Part shown: in pieces, positions 13,506-57,760 of the stretch | Layout: every line of letters starts with the position of its first letter | How positions within the stretch are numbered: the first letter of the stretch is position 1 | Origin: Patescibacteria group bacterium | GTDB lineage: Bacteria > Patescibacteriota > Gracilibacteria > Peribacterales > Peribacteraceae | DNA length: 64,000 bases | Direction: 5' to 3' | Assembly (NCBI GenBank): GCA_018814875.1 | Contig: JAHIYH010000036.1 | Location: 1-64,000 of the forward strand | Position numbers and translations under genes: made by a program | Notes under the pieces: model-generated | Told to the model about the DNA's origin: nothing | Databases searched by the model: none | Seen by the model: only the letters and a program-made list of their open reading frames with translations

Positions 13506-14675
13506 ATGTCCAACAAGATTTCATTACCGGCATTAATAGATTGCCACGTGCATTTCCGCGAGCCAGGGCTTGAGTACAAAGGTGATATGCAATCAGAGTC
13601 TACCGCTGCAAATGCCGGCGGGGTCTTCACGGTGTGCGACATGCCCAATACAAATCCTCCAACTTCTTCAGTAGAAACTTTCAGAGATAAAGTTGCACGA
13701 GCGTCAAAAATTAAAAACTGCGACATTAGATTCTTCTTTGGGATTACGGAGAGTAGTCATTTAGAAGAACTAAAAAAACTTTGGGAAGATGAGGAGCTTA
13801 AGAAGAGATGCTGTGGAGTGAAGGTCTTTTTCGATCATTCAACAGGAGATCAAAAAGCTTCCAAAGATGTAATAGAAGAAGCGTTTAAAGTATGTGCTGA
13901 ACTTCGGATTCCAATTGTTGCGCATTGTGAGGATGCTCAGATTAACGAAGATGCACGCCACATGATTCTAGCAAAAGCAGGCGACAGTAATGCGCTTGAT
14001 GTTTCCTTCCATTCGCTCATGCGCCCATGCGCATCGGAAGCTAAAGCAATCGAAGACGCCATTAATTTGGCTACTAGATACTCTGCACAGCTACATATTG
14101 CACATCTTTCCACTGCCCTAGGAATCAATTTGGTTCGCGAAGCAAAAGAGAAAAATGTGAATGTGACATGCGAAGTTTCTACTCATCATTTGTTCCTAAC
14201 AACGGACGATTACAAAACACTTGGAACATTGGCAAAAATGAATCCCCCGCTCCGCACACCTTCGGAACAACAAGCACTTTGGGACGGTATTGCGGATGGT
14301 ACAGTCGATTGCATTGCTACTGATCATGCGCCGCACACTCTAGAAGAGAAGCAAGTTGATGATCAGCTAAGTGCGCCAAGTGGAGTTACGGGAGTGGAAA
14401 CTATGTTGCCACTTCTTCTGACTGTTGCGTCAGGGGGCTGGCCGCATCCAACATCTTCGCGCCCAAATATTCCAATATTCCAATATTCCAATATTCGAAA
14501 ACTTTGTTTCGAAAATCCAAACAAGATCTTCCAGCTCGGCAAGCCAGACGAGCCACGTATTACAATTGATCCGCAAAAAGAGTGGGTTATATCTGGAGAT
14601 AAGCTTCATTCAAAATGTGGATGGACTCCTTACGAGGGGTGGAAGGTGGTGGGAAAAATAGATGATGTTTTGTAG
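13506..14675 (+). CDS. pyrC: dihydroorotase
   Basis: 389 residues, class I amidohydrolase. The metal-binding motif DCHVHFREPG is near residue 13, the carboxylatable lysine is in GVKVFFDHSTG, later metal histidines are in VAHCEDAQ and IAHLST, and the catalytic Asp is in CIATDHAPHT. It closes the dihydroorotate ring after PyrB. A short tandem repeat (about four units of CCAATATT, 14466-14495) has been absorbed in frame and codes NIPIFQYSNI near residue 325, close to where the family carries a conserved loop. A CTAGG-rich array (13455-13495) separates it from pyrB. Confidence 0.93.
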   Translation: MSNKISLPALIDCHVHFREPGLEYKGDMQSESTAANAGGVFTVCDMPNTNPPTSSVETFRDKVARASKIKNCDIRFFFGITESSHLEELKKLWEDEELKKRCCGVKVFFDHSTGDQKASKDVIEEAFKVCAELRIPIVAHCEDAQINEDARHMILAKAGDSNALDVSFHSLMRPCASEAKAIEDAINLATRYSAQLHIAHLSTALGINLVREAKEKNVNVTCEVSTHHLFLTTDDYKTLGTLAKMNPPLRTPSEQQALWDGIADGTVDCIATDHAPHTLEEKQVDDQLSAPSGVTGVETMLPLLLTVASGGWPHPTSSRPNIPIFQYSNIRKLCFENPNKIFQLGKPDEPRITIDPQKEWVISGDKLHSKCGWTPYEGWKVVGKIDDVL

Positions 14676-15212: not shown

Positions 15213-15257
15213 GGGCAATAGAAGCAATAGAGGAAATAAAAGAAATAGAAGATATTT
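15213..15257 (+). repeat. left arm of inverted repeat array around four-helix-bundle gene A
   Basis: Purine-rich units such as GCAATAGAGGAAATAAAAG and AAATAGAAGATATTT. The reverse complement of 15657-15700 matches about 27 of 30 bases. It ends about 30 bp before the gene. Confidence 0.65.
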
Positions 15258-15286
15258 CGTTTAATAATTTTCTCAGTTATTGTTGA

Positions 15287-15655
15287 ATGCTAATGAATCG
15301 CACTTATGAAAAATTAGTGGCATGGAAAGAGGCACATGATCTGTGTCTCTGGGTATATCGTGCCTCAAGAAAATTTCCTTCCGAAGAAAAGTATGGTTTG
15401 ACATCTCAGATGCGTCGTGCTGCCTATAGTGTTCCTATGAATATTGCTGAGGGCAATGCGCGCAGGTCTAGCAAGGAAAAAGCGCGTTTCTTCGAAATAT
15501 CACTGGCTTCGCTAGAGGAGTTGCATTATCAATGCAGACTTGCATGTGATCTTGATTATATTAATAAGGAACAATTCCAGAATGCTCACGATAGAATAAG
15601 CCGCACGAATTATCTAATAACAAAATTGCGCACGGTTTTTCTAAAACATTCATAA
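15287..15655 (+). CDS. four-helix-bundle protein A (23S rRNA IVP / Avd-like family)
   Basis: 122 residues, ATG 15287 or 15293. The family signature is clear: YEKLVAWKEAHDLCLWVYRA, then YGLTSQMRRAAYSVPMNIAEG and RFFEISLASLEELHYQCRLA. Relatives are encoded by intervening sequences in 23S rRNA genes of Leptospira and Coxiella, and Avd of diversity-generating retroelements is a structural relative. No rRNA or reverse transcriptase is in this window. The gene sits alone between inverted repeat arms, the architecture of an rRNA IVS but placed in an intergenic region. A second member lies at 41270. Confidence 0.88.
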   Translation: MLMNRTYEKLVAWKEAHDLCLWVYRASRKFPSEEKYGLTSQMRRAAYSVPMNIAEGNARRSSKEKARFFEISLASLEELHYQCRLACDLDYINKEQFQNAHDRISRTNYLITKLRTVFLKHS

Positions 15656-15656
15656 T

Positions 15657-15700
15657 CCTATATTTCCTCTATTTCTTTTATTCCCTCTATTTCCTTTTTC
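15657..15700 (-). repeat. right arm of inverted repeat array around four-helix-bundle gene A
   Basis: CCTATATTTCCTCTATTTC followed by TTTTATTCCCTCTATTTCC, the complement of the left arm at 15213-15257. It starts two bases after the gene's stop. A REP-like GC palindrome (CTTCGACTCGCCCTTCGGGG) follows at 15732-15767. Confidence 0.65.
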
Positions 15701-38128: not shown

Positions 38129-41080
38129 ATGGCGCGCAAATCATTTACTGCTATTGAGACTCTAATTACGATCGGCATCATTGGCGTAACTGCAGGAATT
38201 TCTGTTCCTATGTTCCGCGACTTCCAGATCCGAAATGATTTGGATCTTGCAACGGAGCAAACTATTCAGGCATTGCGTAGTGCACAGATTAGATCGCAAG
38301 CCGGACAGAATGATGAGGAGTGGGGAATCTTTATTCAAGAAGGAATCCTCTTTCAAGGTGAAACATATATGTTGCGTGATCCTGATCAGGATGAGGTCTA
38401 CCCAATTCCTTCTACAATAAATACATCTGGCTTGGAGGAAGTCGTTTTTTCTCGTGTTGATGGTGACCCATATCAGACGGGGGATATTAGATTAGAAGCA
38501 CTCAACGGAGATTATCGAATCATAACAATTAGTGGTGAAGGAGTTCTGTCTTCAACTGACATAGAAGAATCGCAAGGAGGTCAAAGTGGCGATGGAGATG
38601 GGGATGACGATGAAGATGATGATAGCGATAGTGATAGTGATGGTGATGGTATTTCAGATGGTGATGAAGGAACTGGAGACAGTGATGGCGATGGGGTCCC
38701 TAATTACCTTGATGATGATAGTGATGGTGATGGAATTCCTGATGAAGAAGAAGGTGATGATGATACGGATGGTGATGGTGTTCCAGATTACCTTGATGAT
38801 GATAGTGATGGTGATGGAATTCCTGATTCAGATGACCCTAGTCCCGATCCAGATGGTGACGATGGATCAGGAGGAGATCAGGGACAGGGAGAAGAATGCG
38901 AAAATCGTTTTGCTGTTTCTGGAGACGGGACTATCGAGACTACTGGTTCTGTTGATGTAACTTTCAAAGCTTTAGGAGCTTCTATTACTTATGGTGCAGG
39001 TGGCCCTGAGATTGCGGTTACAGTAAGAGCAAGTACAAATGGTGGTCAGACATGGATTGATCTCTTTGGTGGCGAAGATATTGATGGAGGAGAGCAGCAG
39101 ACAATTTCAAATCTTCCATCGGGATCCAATATTCTCCTTGAGATTAATGGTCGATATCGTTGGTTCTTCAACAAGAATTACATGTCCAACGATCAAAGTG
39201 GTCACATTGAAGTCTTGCGCAATGGTGATGATCCGCCAGCTTACGCACCATTTAGTGATCAAGCTGGCTTAGAGTCGTTCCTTCGGGAGATTCTAGATGG
39301 CCAAGGGAAGATCAGTATTGGAGAATACGATGCAATCATTCTGGGCGAGCTTGGAACGCTTAGTAGCGCATCTTCTGATTTTCAGGATGCGGTTATTTTA
39401 GTTCAATTTGCACAACAGCCAGGAAGTTGTGCGGGAACAACTGATCCACGTTTCAAGGTAGTCTTTGATCGTCTAGAAAACACACAAGCAGGAGACAGTG
39501 AGCGTGCGGTATATGTAGGGAGTAATAGCATTCGCTTTGCTGAGTCTCAGTGGATTCCATTGGCAGTTAATGGTGTTGAGATCACAGATACAGGACTCAT
39601 AGAAGCGGTACCAGGCCTTGCAGCCGAAAGACTTGGTGGGAATGCTGTACGCATTCTCTTGCACGGTTCACACAGCATCAATAATTCTAAGGAAATAGTA
39701 GATGCGCGTATTATTTTTGATAATGTTACTGTTCTTGGAATTGACAATGATACAGGAGATAACGTAACGGAAAATCCGTTTGATGGAATTTTGAATGATG
39801 GATCTGGTGGAGATGAAGTGAGTATGACGAGTACGGAAGTACTTTTCCAAACACGTGTTACAGTCAAAGACGATGCGATTCTAATAAACTGGCAGTCGGG
39901 AGCTCCTTCTAACCCCGATGCCGGCGAGGATGATGATACGACCTATGAAGATGATACAACGGATGAAGATGATACAACGGATAATGATGAGTCTGACGGA
40001 GAAGAAGTGGATCCGTGTATGGCAGCATTTACTCTCGAGAATGGTCGTATCACTCTTGGGGAACTTGCGAATGTTACTTTCAAAGTCCTTGGGTCTCATG
40101 CACAGCATGGTGGAGAAGGTGGAGCAGAAGTACAGGTACGGCTCTCTGCCAGTTTAGATGGAGGTGTTCTGTGGAAAACGCTATACAACTTCCGAGATGT
40201 GGATGGTGGGGAGAGTGAATCATTTACAGATGTCCCCGCAGGAAGCCAAATTCTTCTTAAGGCAGAAGGTCGTTATGGGTGGGTCTTCAAACAGGACAGT
40301 CACTCTGGTGATGGTGCTGGTCGTGTGAAGATTCTACGTTCTGGTGATGTTCTTCCATCTACTTCGACTCTATTAGATCCTACTCGTCTTAAATCATTTA
40401 TGCGCAATGCAATTCGCAACGGTAAGGCATATCCAGGAGGACGAAGAGTTCTGGCACTTGTGGAAACACAAGAGTTGGATGACAACTCGGACTTCCAAGA
40501 TGCAGTGGTAGCCATTTATCTGGAGCGTCCAGCTTGTGGATCTTCAGTTGATGAAGACGACGAACTTGATTATGAAGATATTGAAGAAGGAGAGGGCGAA
40601 GAAGAAAGCAAAGTGACTATTTGCCATTATCCTCCAGGGAATAGTGGGAATGCTCAAACACTTCAAATTAGTACATCAGCTTGGCCAGCACATAGATTGC
40701 GAGGTGATCGAGTTGGCTCTTGTGAAGATGATAAAGACGGCGATGGTGTTCCAAATTCAATGGACCTTTGTCCGAATACATATATGCCAGAATCAGTTCC
40801 TCTCGAGCAAATGCTATTCAATAGATATGCTCTTACATCCGATGGTGATGCTTTCCGAAATGGGCCACGCAAGAAAATAGGCGAGTATAGTATTAGTGAT
40901 ACAAAAGGATGTAGTTGTGAACAGCTTATTGATGTTGCAGAAGGTGAGAGGTCATATTACTTCGAACAATATCCAATTTTGTATCGCAATATGCGTTCCC
41001 TCTTTCCGCACTATACAGAGGGTGCGCGCAACAATGGATGTCCGAAGGCTGTGCTTAGGATGGTGGAAAGAGGAACGTGA
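38129..41080 (+). CDS. giant pilin-like adhesin (983 residues)
   Basis: The N-terminus is a type IV prepilin signal and helix (ARKSFTAIETLITIGIIGVT; Glu at +5). A DSDGDG-rich calcium-binding segment follows (about residues 155-250, thrombospondin-3-like). Then two copies of a 190-residue beta domain appear (VTFKALGASITYGAGGPEIA.. and VTFKVLGSHAQHGGEGGAEV..), each with GGQTWIDL/GGVLWKTL and the SSDFQDAV/NSDFQDAV motif. Another DxDxDG motif (DDKDGDGVPNSMDLCPN) lies near 870. It is probably a pilus-tip adhesin or minor pilin processed by PilD. The DNA coding the Asp repeats is itself a tandem array. Confidence 0.8.
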   Translation: MARKSFTAIETLITIGIIGVTAGISVPMFRDFQIRNDLDLATEQTIQALRSAQIRSQAGQNDEEWGIFIQEGILFQGETYMLRDPDQDEVYPIPSTINTSGLEEVVFSRVDGDPYQTGDIRLEALNGDYRIITISGEGVLSSTDIEESQGGQSGDGDGDDDEDDDSDSDSDGDGISDGDEGTGDSDGDGVPNYLDDDSDGDGIPDEEEGDDDTDGDGVPDYLDDDSDGDGIPDSDDPSPDPDGDDGSGGDQGQGEECENRFAVSGDGTIETTGSVDVTFKALGASITYGAGGPEIAVTVRASTNGGQTWIDLFGGEDIDGGEQQTISNLPSGSNILLEINGRYRWFFNKNYMSNDQSGHIEVLRNGDDPPAYAPFSDQAGLESFLREILDGQGKISIGEYDAIILGELGTLSSASSDFQDAVILVQFAQQPGSCAGTTDPRFKVVFDRLENTQAGDSERAVYVGSNSIRFAESQWIPLAVNGVEITDTGLIEAVPGLAAERLGGNAVRILLHGSHSINNSKEIVDARIIFDNVTVLGIDNDTGDNVTENPFDGILNDGSGGDEVSMTSTEVLFQTRVTVKDDAILINWQSGAPSNPDAGEDDDTTYEDDTTDEDDTTDNDESDGEEVDPCMAAFTLENGRITLGELANVTFKVLGSHAQHGGEGGAEVQVRLSASLDGGVLWKTLYNFRDVDGGESESFTDVPAGSQILLKAEGRYGWVFKQDSHSGDGAGRVKILRSGDVLPSTSTLLDPTRLKSFMRNAIRNGKAYPGGRRVLALVETQELDDNSDFQDAVVAIYLERPACGSSVDEDDELDYEDIEEGEGEEESKVTICHYPPGNSGNAQTLQISTSAWPAHRLRGDRVGSCEDDKDGDGVPNSMDLCPNTYMPESVPLEQMLFNRYALTSDGDAFRNGPRKKIGEYSISDTKGCSCEQLIDVAEGERSYYFEQYPILYRNMRSLFPHYTEGARNNGCPKAVLRMVERGT

Positions 41081-41086
41081 ACCCTT

Positions 41087-41148
41087 ATTAGCTGATTGGC
41101 TGATTAGCTGATTAGCTGGTTGGCTGATTAGCTGGTTGGCTGATTAGG
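41087..41148 (+). repeat. left arm of inverted repeat array around four-helix-bundle gene B
   Basis: Repeats of TTAGCTGATTGGCTGA and GATTAGCTGGTTGGCTG, about seven units. The complement lies at 41641-41690. It starts seven bases after the giant pilin's stop. Confidence 0.75.
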
Positions 41149-41269: not shown

Positions 41270-41656
41270 ATGATGATTCATTCTTATTGTGATCTCATTG
41301 TATGGCAAAAGTCATCAGATCTTGTTGAGGCAGTGTACGAACTGGTCTCCCATTTTCCACAGTCGGAGCTCTATGAGTTATCGGCTCAAATGAGAAGATC
41401 TGCAGTGTCGATTCCATCCAATATTGCAGAAGGAAGGAGAAAGAAGACAAGAAAAGATTATTGTAACTTTCTTCAGATTGCCTATGGTTCGGGTGGAGAA
41501 TTGGAGGCACAAATTATCTTGGCCAAGCGCCTCCCGTTTGGAAGGAATTTAGACTATTCAAAAGTTGATGATCTATTGAATCAGGTTATGCGCATGCTTA
41601 ACAAGATGCTATGTAGTTTAAGGCAGCCAGCGAAATCTAATAAGCCAATCAGTTAA
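41270..41656 (+). CDS. four-helix-bundle protein B (23S rRNA IVP / Avd-like family)
   Basis: 128 residues. DLIVWQKSSDLVEAVYELVS, LYELSAQMRRSAVSIPSNIA and EGRRKKTRKDYCNFLQIAYG then SGGELEAQIILAKRL are the family signature. It is only moderately similar to protein A at 15287. It interrupts the pilin cluster and lies between inverted repeat arms whose sequence is unrelated to those around gene A. The right arm overlaps its last codons (KPIS). Confidence 0.88.
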   Translation: MMIHSYCDLIVWQKSSDLVEAVYELVSHFPQSELYELSAQMRRSAVSIPSNIAEGRRKKTRKDYCNFLQIAYGSGGELEAQIILAKRLPFGRNLDYSKVDDLLNQVMRMLNKMLCSLRQPAKSNKPIS

Positions 41657-41690
41657 TCAGCTAATCAGTTAATCAGCTAATCAGCTGGTA
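41641..41690 (-). repeat. right arm of inverted repeat array around four-helix-bundle gene B
   Basis: AGCCAATCAGTTAATCAGCT followed by AATCAGTTAATCAGCTAATC, complementary to 41087-41148. It begins inside the gene's last codons and ends about 50 bp before the next pilin gene. Confidence 0.75.
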
Positions 41691-44490: not shown

Positions 44491-44505
44491 TGTTCCTTTA
44501 TATAA

Positions 44506-44800
44506 AGGAAACCAAGGAATCCAAGGAAACCTAAGAATGGTGATGTTTTTATCGACATGAAGCTCCGCTAGCTTACGCAGGCGGCGTCTTTCCACTCGCC
44601 TTCGGCGTCGCACGCGAAATCCGCCGTAGCAGTATCGCCACCAACAAAGAACGCATTCATCCTCCAGTTTACGCTGGAGGTTTTATGCGAAGGCGGATAA
44701 ATCTTGATAGATGTTTAACAGCAGCCCTTTGGTTTCCTTGGTTTCTTTGGTTTCCTTGGATTCCTTGGTTTCTTTGGATTCCTCGATTTCCTTGCCACCA
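44506..44800. repeat. inverted array pair with REP-like core, 44491-44820
   Basis: The left arm (44506-44536, AAAGGAAACCAAGGAATCC) is complementary to units in 44727-44800 (TTTGGTTTCCTTGGTTTC). Between them are GC-rich palindromes (CTTACGCAGGCGGCG; GCCTTCGGCGTCGC) and the hairpin at 44661. No gene is seen between 44491 and 44950. Confidence 0.6.
44661..44684 (+). terminator. hairpin terminator after the minor pilin genes
   Basis: CCTCCAG, loop TTTAC, GCTGGAGG and TTTT, flanked by further complementary bases (CGCAT/ATGCG). Confidence 0.5.
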
Positions 44801-56327: not shown

Positions 56328-57629
56328 ATGCCCTCCTCATGCTTCATATTCTCAGCACAAGTGGATATTAGATATCGAATCGAAGGCGGAGTAGCACTGC
56401 GCGGTGACGTTACCGTTAGTGGCTCCAAGAACGCAGCACTCCCGCTGATTGCGAGCAGCCTGCTTTGCAGTGGAGAGACGGTGCTTAATAATGTTCCATT
56501 TCTAAGAGATGTAAAAGCGTTGCTGGAGATCTTGGAATTCTTGGGGGCGGAAACTTCTTTTCAGGATGGTACAGTTCGTATCCGTACAAATAATGTTCAA
56601 AGCAAACCAATTCCTGCTGAATATGTTGGGAAGCTACGTGGTTCAATTGTTCTCTTGGGTCCACTTCTTGCACGCTTTGGCGTGGTCGAGATGGCGTACC
56701 CTGGGGGATGTGTACTTGGCAAGCGTCCGATAGAAGCGCACAGAGCAGCTTTGCGTCAGCTTGGGGCAGAAGATATGAGTCATGATGAGGTGTTGCACTT
56801 TCAGGGCAAGTTAAGAGCGGGGCGTGTGGTGCTTCCGGAGTTTTCGGTCACTGCGACAGAGAATGCAGTTATGGCAGCAGCACTTTTACCAGGTGAAACT
56901 CAAATTGATCTGGCTGCAGCCGAGCCACACGTACAGGAAGTGTGCAAAATGATGCAGGCAATGGGTGCACAGGTAGAAGGTATTGGAACACACACTATAA
57001 AAGTTTGTGGTCGACCAGATTTAAAGTGTCCAATTCACAGAGTTCCTTCTGATTATCTAGAAATTGGAGCGCTTGCGGTGGCAGCAATGGTAACCGGAGG
57101 TAAAGTTCGACTTCATGATGTGGATTATGATCACATGATTTCCTTCTTGAATGCGCTTACACGTATGGGAGTAGTTTGGAAGTACGAGGAGGGAGAAAAA
57201 GTCCTCTTTATAGATGGAGAACTCACCTCTTTGCGTCCAACTCATATTCAAACGAACATTTTTCCAGGATTTCCTACAGACTTACTTCCGCCTCTTGGAG
57301 TTGCGATGACGCAAGCCAACGGTGTTAGCCGAATTTTCGAGATGCTATTCGAAGGGCGCATGGCTTACCTCTATGAATTGGAAAAAATGGGAGCCCACAT
57401 CGAAATCCTCAACTCGCATCAGGCTCTTGTTATAGGACCTACAAAATTGAGAGGCCATACAGTTGCCAGTAACGATATTCGTGCAGGAGTAGCGATGGTA
57501 ATTGCAGGGCTTTGTGCAGAAGGCGAGACCACGGTGACAGATGTACGTTACATTGAGCGTGGGTATGATCATCTGGATACTAAGTTAAGAAACCTCGGAG
57601 CGAGGATAGAAAAAATTGAATCTGAGTAG
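56328..57629 (+). CDS. murA: UDP-N-acetylglucosamine 1-carboxyvinyltransferase
   Basis: 433 residues. The substrate-binding SGSKNAALPLIASSLL (Lys-Asn pair), the active-site Cys in YPGGCVLGKRPIEAH (about residue 126), and the C-terminal NDIRAGVAMVIAGLCAEGET and ERGYDHLDTKLRNLGA are all present. The Cys form is the fosfomycin-sensitive type. It commits UDP-GlcNAc to peptidoglycan synthesis, so this cell makes or remodels a wall. Confidence 0.95.
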   Translation: MPSSCFIFSAQVDIRYRIEGGVALRGDVTVSGSKNAALPLIASSLLCSGETVLNNVPFLRDVKALLEILEFLGAETSFQDGTVRIRTNNVQSKPIPAEYVGKLRGSIVLLGPLLARFGVVEMAYPGGCVLGKRPIEAHRAALRQLGAEDMSHDEVLHFQGKLRAGRVVLPEFSVTATENAVMAAALLPGETQIDLAAAEPHVQEVCKMMQAMGAQVEGIGTHTIKVCGRPDLKCPIHRVPSDYLEIGALAVAAMVTGGKVRLHDVDYDHMISFLNALTRMGVVWKYEEGEKVLFIDGELTSLRPTHIQTNIFPGFPTDLLPPLGVAMTQANGVSRIFEMLFEGRMAYLYELEKMGAHIEILNSHQALVIGPTKLRGHTVASNDIRAGVAMVIAGLCAEGETTVTDVRYIERGYDHLDTKLRNLGARIEKIESE

Positions 57630-57760
57630 CTTATAGCTTTTAGCTGCTAGCTTCTAGAATAAGTAGAACAGGTATTTAGAGAGCTCAGAATGATTTCATA
57701 GGTCTTAGATTTTACAAATAACAACTCATCTAGAAGCTAGAAGCTAAAAGCTAGCAAGGA
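57627..57760. repeat. orphan inverted array of AGCTTCTAG / CTAGAAGCT units
   Basis: TAGCTTATAGCTTTTAGCTG at the murA stop is complementary to AGAAGCTAGAAGCTAAAAGC, with about 65 nt between. The same unit appears once before tRNA-Thr (49410-49447) without a partner. Confidence 0.65.

Follow-up and report, generated by a model that had tools for sequence, protein, structure and literature searches.

Genes of the PF05635/TIGR02436 family are common, yet carry no annotation beyond "four helix bundle" or "23S rRNA-intervening sequence protein" (hereafter IVP). In Coxiella burnetii, the intervening sequence (IVS) of the 23S rRNA gene is ~430 nt long and combines an S23p/IVP ORF, a 28-bp terminal inverted stem and, upstream of the ORF, 2–3 tandem copies (the number varies) of the heptamer GACAGAT (PMC4990558). 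IVSs are sporadic, horizontally transferred and cut by RNase III, and an older idea holds them to be remnants of transposition (PMC4990558); rRNA genes of CPR bacteria also sometimes contain 23S_rRNA_IVP insertions (PMC11270868). A second system, RAYT/REPIN, is built from genes that are each present once and differ from one another; every such gene has a family of short inverted-repeat hairpins scattered through the genome, for which mobilisation in trans has been proposed (PMC3116915). Finally, scattered intergenic tandem heptamers (TAACTGA) have been reported from Beggiatoaceae, Cyanobacteria and Bacteroidetes (PMC4679880).

An IVP gene between inverted tandem arrays

We analysed a 64,000-nt stretch of DNA (the window) from contig C29 of a genome of 1.42 Mb (G000). 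Within it, an IVP gene that we call gene A occupies the interval between pyrC and the RNase J gene, where it is intergenic and outside any rRNA gene. In profile searches the gene A protein matched PF05635 (23S_rRNA_IVP) at E 2.5e-36 and TIGR02436 at E 2.3e-33; its Pfam and NCBIfam matches at E ≤1e-3 were all of IVP/Avd type, with none to a Y1 (HUH) transposase. Solved relatives are 2gsc and 2rld, each deposited as five chains, a state taken from those PDB entries.

On either side of gene A lies an array of a 9-nt purine-rich unit (Table 1), and the right array, which is the reverse complement of the left, begins at the gene A stop codon. The best inverted alignment extends over 30 nt (15226-15255 with 15662-15691, 27/30 complementary), giving an arm score of 22.5, compared with a maximum of 14.0 and a 99% value of 11.5 at 400 random control places in the same genome. 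These results bear out the original prediction of an IVP/Avd-like gene between inverted purine-rich arms, and also amend it: the arms are indeed inverted, but instead of ~45-bp reverse complements they are imperfect tandem 9-nt repeats of ~30–42 nt. Folded as RNA, the arms pair around the ORF (z -2.9; 0/100 shuffles as stable), in line with the expectation that a transcript would carry the ORF in its loop.

Element A, as we term the gene with its arms, follows the same plan as a 23S IVS, with a PF05635 protein, complementary ends that form a stem, and short tandem repeats; with the parts of the Coxiella IVS present between pyrC and RNase J, its description as an IVS-like element outside rRNA is supported. 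However, IVSs lie in rRNA helices and are excised by RNase III, whereas protein genes flank element A and its sisters. Unlike IVSs, they also reach 21 distinct copies per genome and are accompanied by gene-less cognate hairpin families; dispersed hairpin families are not mentioned in the IVS literature we examined. A link to the 23S rRNA gene of G000 itself was rejected: this gene (G000:C68:36511-39659, where the match spans model positions 15-2044 only) has a ~1-kb interruption holding a LAGLIDADG-like ORF of 197 aa, not an IVP. A scan of the fetched loci for rRNA motifs found them in three loci only, none shown at the IVP.

RAYT/REPIN is the system nearest in logic, in that the flanking repeats recur genome-wide as cognate inverted doublets. 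The two differ in their proteins, RAYT being a Y1 tyrosine transposase and IVP a four-helix-bundle protein without a known catalytic site, and in their repeats, REPs being short imperfect palindromes of ~20 bp and IVP arms being arrays of a 6–9-nt unit that differs between families. Because it lies outside rRNA and lacks a Y1 domain, we file element A under neither IVS nor RAYT/REPIN. Avd of diversity-generating retroelements (DGRs) belongs to the same fold family as gene A, which matched Avd models below threshold (NF033474, 44.7 bits, cut-off 80; PF22296, 33.4, cut-off 40); unlike DGR Avd, gene A has no adjoining reverse transcriptase, the sole RVT_1 match on its contig (C29:68223) being ~52 kb distant, and IVPs occur in genomes without an RVT_1 match. 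The TAACTGA heptamers resemble IVP arrays in being intergenic 7-mers from partly the same phyla, but their published description presents them as direct repeats apart from a single inverted case, and does not connect them with IVPs (PMC4679880). Foldback transposons and MITEs share with IVP elements the inverted ends and what look like non-autonomous internal-deletion copies. In foldback elements, the inverted ends may themselves consist of short tandem repeats. What sets the IVP master copy apart from these is that it has no DDE transposase, is bacterial and uses a 6–9-nt unit.

Table 1 IVP genes, arms and related arrays in the window
Feature	Position	Strand	Evidence
Element A, left arm: 4.0 copies of a AATAGAAGA-like, purine-rich 9-nt unit	15217..15252	+	TRF, inverted-repeat partner
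Gene A, IVP/four-helix-bundle ORF, 122 aa	15287..15655	+	ORF, PF05635, TIGR02436, PDB relatives
Right arm of element A, 9-nt array TCCTCTATT-like, 4.4 copies	15656..15697	+	TRF, inverted alignment
8-nt array AATATTCC x4, in frame within the pyrC coding sequence	14466..14496	+	TRF, congener comparison
Gene-less hairpin of the element A unit, two inverted 9-nt arrays, 13-nt loop	34411..34487	.	Array pairing, cognate match
Second IVP element, left arm: array of the 8-nt unit ATTAGCTG	41087..41147	+	TRF, arm scoring
Second IVP gene, 127 aa, stop codon inside the right arm	41273..41656	+	PF05635, arm scoring
Second IVP element, right arm: array of the 8-nt unit CTAATCAG, reverse-complementary to the left arm	41637..41686	+	TRF, arm scoring
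Pair of inverted 9-nt arrays, AAGGAAACC / TTGGTTTCC, separated by 198 nt and enclosing no IVP gene	44505..44794	.	TRF
Gene-less hairpin, 7-nt units TAGCTTC / CTAGAAG	57627..57754	.	Array pairing

Sister elements and gene-less hairpins in one genome

Our analysis revealed 21 IVP (PF05635) genes in G000, 20 of which have inverted arms scoring ≥15 (range 15–46); the exception, L023, has an arm score of 11, with weak mirrored arrays still visible. Each of these genes has an arm unit of its own, 6–9 nt long, such as the 9-nt AATAGAAGA of gene A, the 8-nt ATTAGCTG of the second IVP in the window, and, elsewhere in the genome, the 7-nt TTAGGAC, the 6-nt AGGGCT and the 8-nt TCGAAAGG; related units are common to three loci (L019, L021 and L022). 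The single, isolated unit that had originally been noticed is real, but that view missed the 20 other IVP loci as well as the gene-less hairpins of cognate units. Arms are mirrored as wholes, with an identity of 87% in register vs. 78% when shifted by one unit, and the in-register alignment was the better one in 60/64 cases. Often the start of the right arm coincides with, or falls in, the stop codon of the IVP gene (51 inside and 29 within 10 nt, of 135).

To survey arrays and hairpins we used 786 kb of G000, mostly contigs holding IVPs or array hits, in which TRF detected 512 arrays of period 6–9, compared with 3 in an order-1 Markov control. Inverted pairs of arrays outnumbered direct pairs (101 vs. 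28), the latter being spread in gap length. Among the inverted pairs we distinguished a long-gap class of 17 entries (gap 350–560 nt), nearly all of which enclose an IVP gene and not the unrelated genes around which the arms might equally have occurred, and a short-gap class of 69 (gap ≤75 nt) that enclose no gene, i.e., at least 69 gene-less hairpins of two inverted arrays. The gaps observed were 0–73 nt for pairs without a gene and ~370–530 nt for those with an IVP gene. The arms of G000's own 21 IVPs match 80% of these 69 hairpins, while control arms from other phyla match 9% (maximum 19%). Hairpin density was 8.8/100 kb in G000 and 5.3/100 kb in its congener G001 (first 20 kb of 40 contigs), and no inverted hairpin was found in 437 kb sampled from three genomes of the same family that have no PF05635 match (G009, G010 and G012); arrays of period 10–13 were similar across all five genomes. 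Many gene-less hairpins made of IVP arm units are thus scattered in the same genome as the IVPs, and among the genomes sampled hairpins were found only in those that bear IVPs.

Could arrays and IVP genes be independent, with slippage-prone arrays filling intergenic DNA and IVPs merely among them? The sheer number of period 6–9 arrays (>500 in 786 kb) would suit such a reading, which is nonetheless barely credible given that IVP-free genomes of the same family show no inverted hairpins, that hairpin units are cognate to the genome's own IVPs, and that, as described below, protein and unit diverge together in a fixed orientation and the same layout surrounds IVPs of many phyla.

Several hairpins point to how they may relate to IVP-bearing copies. 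Hairpins of the ATTGTTCC family at unrelated loci have a common loop, GCAAGCGATTA.CAGAT.TGCTGCCACTTTAGAACAATGG, and the IVP copy of this family at C59 carries, just inside its left arm, the sequence CCATTGTTCGCAAGCGATTATC in common with the hairpins, so that the two look related by an internal deletion. Another hairpin family of G000, of GTTTATTAAG type and assigned to none of this genome's own IVPs, resembles the arms of an IVP in G001. Within the window, the inverted pair of 9-nt arrays 198 nt apart has a unit resembling that of the IVP at C53:23222, and the array within pyrC, which is common to G001 and absent from the congener G002, has a unit that matches the arms of a G001 IVP element (L100).

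Turnover among congeners and breadth across phyla

Comparison with four congeners (G001–G004) revealed neither gene A nor its arms between the orthologous pyrC and RNase J genes of any of them. In their place, G001 has short palindromes (GCAGGCA..TGCCTGC) that enclose a RAYT-like Y1 transposase gene (L138/L244), G002 and G003 have a HAD-type gene with a 7-nt hairpin, and G004 has a HAD-type gene with an 8-nt hairpin; gene names in this interval were read by eye from the sequence, that of the RAYT-like gene being supported also by a Y1_Tnp match (G001:C20:4921-5130). Together with the recurrence of the module at unrelated sites, this supports the proposal of a self-contained mobile unit, and when we looked for the contrary pattern, in which gene and arms stay as fixed neighbours in related genomes, we found that neighbours vary across congeners.

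Hairpins turn over as well. For 26 G000 hairpins with both flanks present in G001, the orthologous site holds a hairpin of the same unit in 6 cases, a hairpin of another unit in 7, and none at threshold in 13. The window provides examples of both outcomes: the gene-less hairpin of the element A unit is missing in G001, where 5 bp separate the alignable flanks, and the hairpin of 7-nt units has a same-unit hairpin at the orthologous G001 site. Similarly, G002 has the IVP element of C37:57500 but G001 lacks it, its flanks there lying 39 bp apart; the C59 IVP element is a decayed remnant in G001, and IVP gene sets differ among congeners. At only 75–85% identity, the congeners do not resolve target-site duplications or exact insertion boundaries. 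The IVP protein itself is under purifying selection, with dN/dS of 0.06–0.14 in the more diverged congener pairs.

Such selection, together with the distinctness of every IVP with its own hairpin family, would also suit a domesticated regulatory network, in which hairpins are selected 3'-end elements (terminators or mRNA-stability elements) and every hairpin family is regulated by its cognate IVP, acting as an RNA- or DNA-binding protein. The 7/26 sites at which a hairpin is kept while its unit changes fit a selected hairpin function there, and to that extent count against a mobile reading. We nevertheless regard the regulatory reading as rather unlikely, since 13/26 hairpins have no detected counterpart in G001, the gene context of hairpins shows no clear bias and lies near the background of intergenic gaps, IVP sets vary among congeners with whole related genomes having no IVP at all, and the transfer of the module across phyla looks selfish.

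An unusual placement was seen in G003, where an IVP ORF (L111, G003:C1, 3917-4384) sits exactly at the ATGA stop/start overlap of two genes, which in G000 share 4 bp. The arms of this IVP, of a 7-nt GGGAAT-type unit, fall inside its ORF.

More broadly, inverted arms scoring ≥14 were present at 86% of 86 IVPs from 40 genomes of the class, vs. 0.8% of control places, and, in a set of 80 loci from across GTDB, at 72% of 86 IVPs, vs. 1.0% of control places, leaving ~28% of IVPs from other phyla without arms at threshold. The latter set includes Bacteroidota, cyanobacteria, Anaerolineae, Verrucomicrobia, Spirochaetes, CPR bacteria and a Heimdallarchaeota MAG, among others, and since several of its loci come from cultured strains, the layout is not a binning artefact. 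An IVP gene with two inverted short-unit arrays is therefore a module that occurs at unrelated sites and in unrelated phyla. One locus, L208 (JAIPIN010000013.1, titled Kiritimatiellales bacterium Tobar13.5m-G78), has exact sequence in common with G001:C26, so its title may be wrong.

Arm units follow the proteins they flank. For IVPs at different sites, mean arm similarity was 0.17–0.18 below 40% protein identity and 0.38 at ≥60%, and protein identity correlated with arm similarity (Mantel r 0.21; largest null value 0.09) when arms were compared in the same orientation, opposite-orientation similarity staying flat. Because this comparison used the left arm, which lies mostly upstream of the ORF, coding sequence in common does not explain the similarity. 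Relative to gene A, IVPs at least 50% identical have 9-nt arms in 73% of cases and arms of ≥75% purine in 82%, vs. 0% and 6%, respectively, for those less than 30% identical. Even distant hosts may have a unit in common, as seen at the cyanobacterial locus L191 and the Anaerolineales loci L200/L204; L155 and L158 also have one in common. Divergence of the IVP protein is thus matched by divergence of its arm unit, whose orientation with respect to the gene does not change.

How IVP elements may be copied

We think it probable that element A is one "master" copy of a two-component mobile system similar to RAYT/REPIN, in which a non-enzymatic IVP takes the role of the transposase. The protein would recognise the tandem units of its own arms, each subunit engaging one or more units, and would provide specificity by binding the repeated units with several of its subunits. 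The two arrays may fold into a hairpin or cruciform at the DNA level, and host replication or repair would then place further copies of the bound element at other sites, most of them intergenic. Gene-less hairpins would have arisen by internal deletion and would depend on the IVP gene in trans, as has been proposed for REPINs and their RAYT, and an element landing in 23S rRNA would be what is called an IVS.

The original prediction instead suggested possible mobility through RNA. Spelled out, the arms of an IVS-like element would pair in its transcript, RNase III would excise the arm–ORF–arm RNA, and the element would spread via a reverse-transcribed intermediate. Such a route can draw on the paired arms of element A as RNA, on true 23S IVSs with ORF, stem and tandem repeats that are cut by RNase III (PMC4990558), and on the relation of IVP to the retroelement protein Avd. 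It is decidedly unlikely on our data. Selection on the stem at the RNA level was rejected, as arm mismatches on the sense strand show no excess of G-U (120) over A-C (130). Dependence on reverse transcriptase was also rejected: by family models applied to draft genomes, no RVT_1 match was detected in three near-complete genomes that hold 7–11 IVPs (G011, G017 and G031). Moreover, the elements are intergenic, gene A lying between genes and not inside a transcript that would need repair, and gene-less hairpins multiply without an ORF.

RVT_1 matches do occur in G000 (C43:40129-40755 and C29:68223-68780), one of them ~1.2 kb from an IVP gene. In another genome of the same class, G032, RVT_1 matches contain 10, 6 and 5 in-frame TGA codons, as if TGA were recoded.

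Alternatively, the elements might be passive substrates moved in trans by an unrelated enzyme, such as the RAYT/IS200-type Y1 transposases of the genus. A RAYT-like gene with palindromes does stand at the gene A place in G001, and Y1_Tnp matches occur in 25/40 relatives, G000 included. This is highly improbable, however, and dependence on Y1/RAYT was rejected, because four genomes with 3–7 IVPs (G011, G017, G022 and G027) have neither a Y1_Tnp nor an RVT_1 match detected by the same family models in draft sequence, whereas G009, G010 and G012 have Y1_Tnp with no IVP and no hairpins in the sampled sequence; such an enzyme would also leave the protein-specific units unexplained.

The absence of G-U bias and the presence of IVPs without RVT_1 or Y1_Tnp lead us to favour DNA-level copying by host functions within the two-component system proposed above. 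We know of no catalytic activity or catalytic site in IVP, and the copying step is for this reason unexplained. In a bolder form of this proposal, which we advance tentatively and with some doubt, IVP proteins may define a prokaryote-wide class of mobile DNA without an enzyme of its own, in which the protein, shaped as a ring, contacts the short tandem units of both arms, one to each subunit, and directs host replication or repair towards copying the element, with many parallel protein/repeat pairs per genome and with rRNA IVSs, and perhaps Avd-assisted retroelements, as offshoots.

In the open-access full text that we searched (subscription journals and bioRxiv lying outside the search), we came across no account that associates IVP genes with inverted short-tandem arrays or with cognate hairpins. 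IVP elements are thus apparently an undescribed, widespread family of mobile DNA across many phyla, new in kind within the open-access literature, although a stricter reader could call them a variant of IVSs. PF05635/TIGR02436 genes gain a context, each being the gene of an element with its own tandem repeats and dispersed hairpins. The system also offers an explanation for much of the 7–9-nt tandem repetition in these genomes and a source for rRNA intervening sequences, whose origin has been in question since about 1990, and adds a new kind of protein–repeat partnership beside RAYT/REPIN. A 23S rRNA IVP is named in a figure legend of work on CRISPR association (PMC10910872), and our guess is that repeat-based screens, such as CRISPR-association pipelines, may be picking up IVP elements.

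Tandem repetition of another kind was observed at 38587-38859 of the window, where long tandem repeats encode a DxDxDG-rich sequence.
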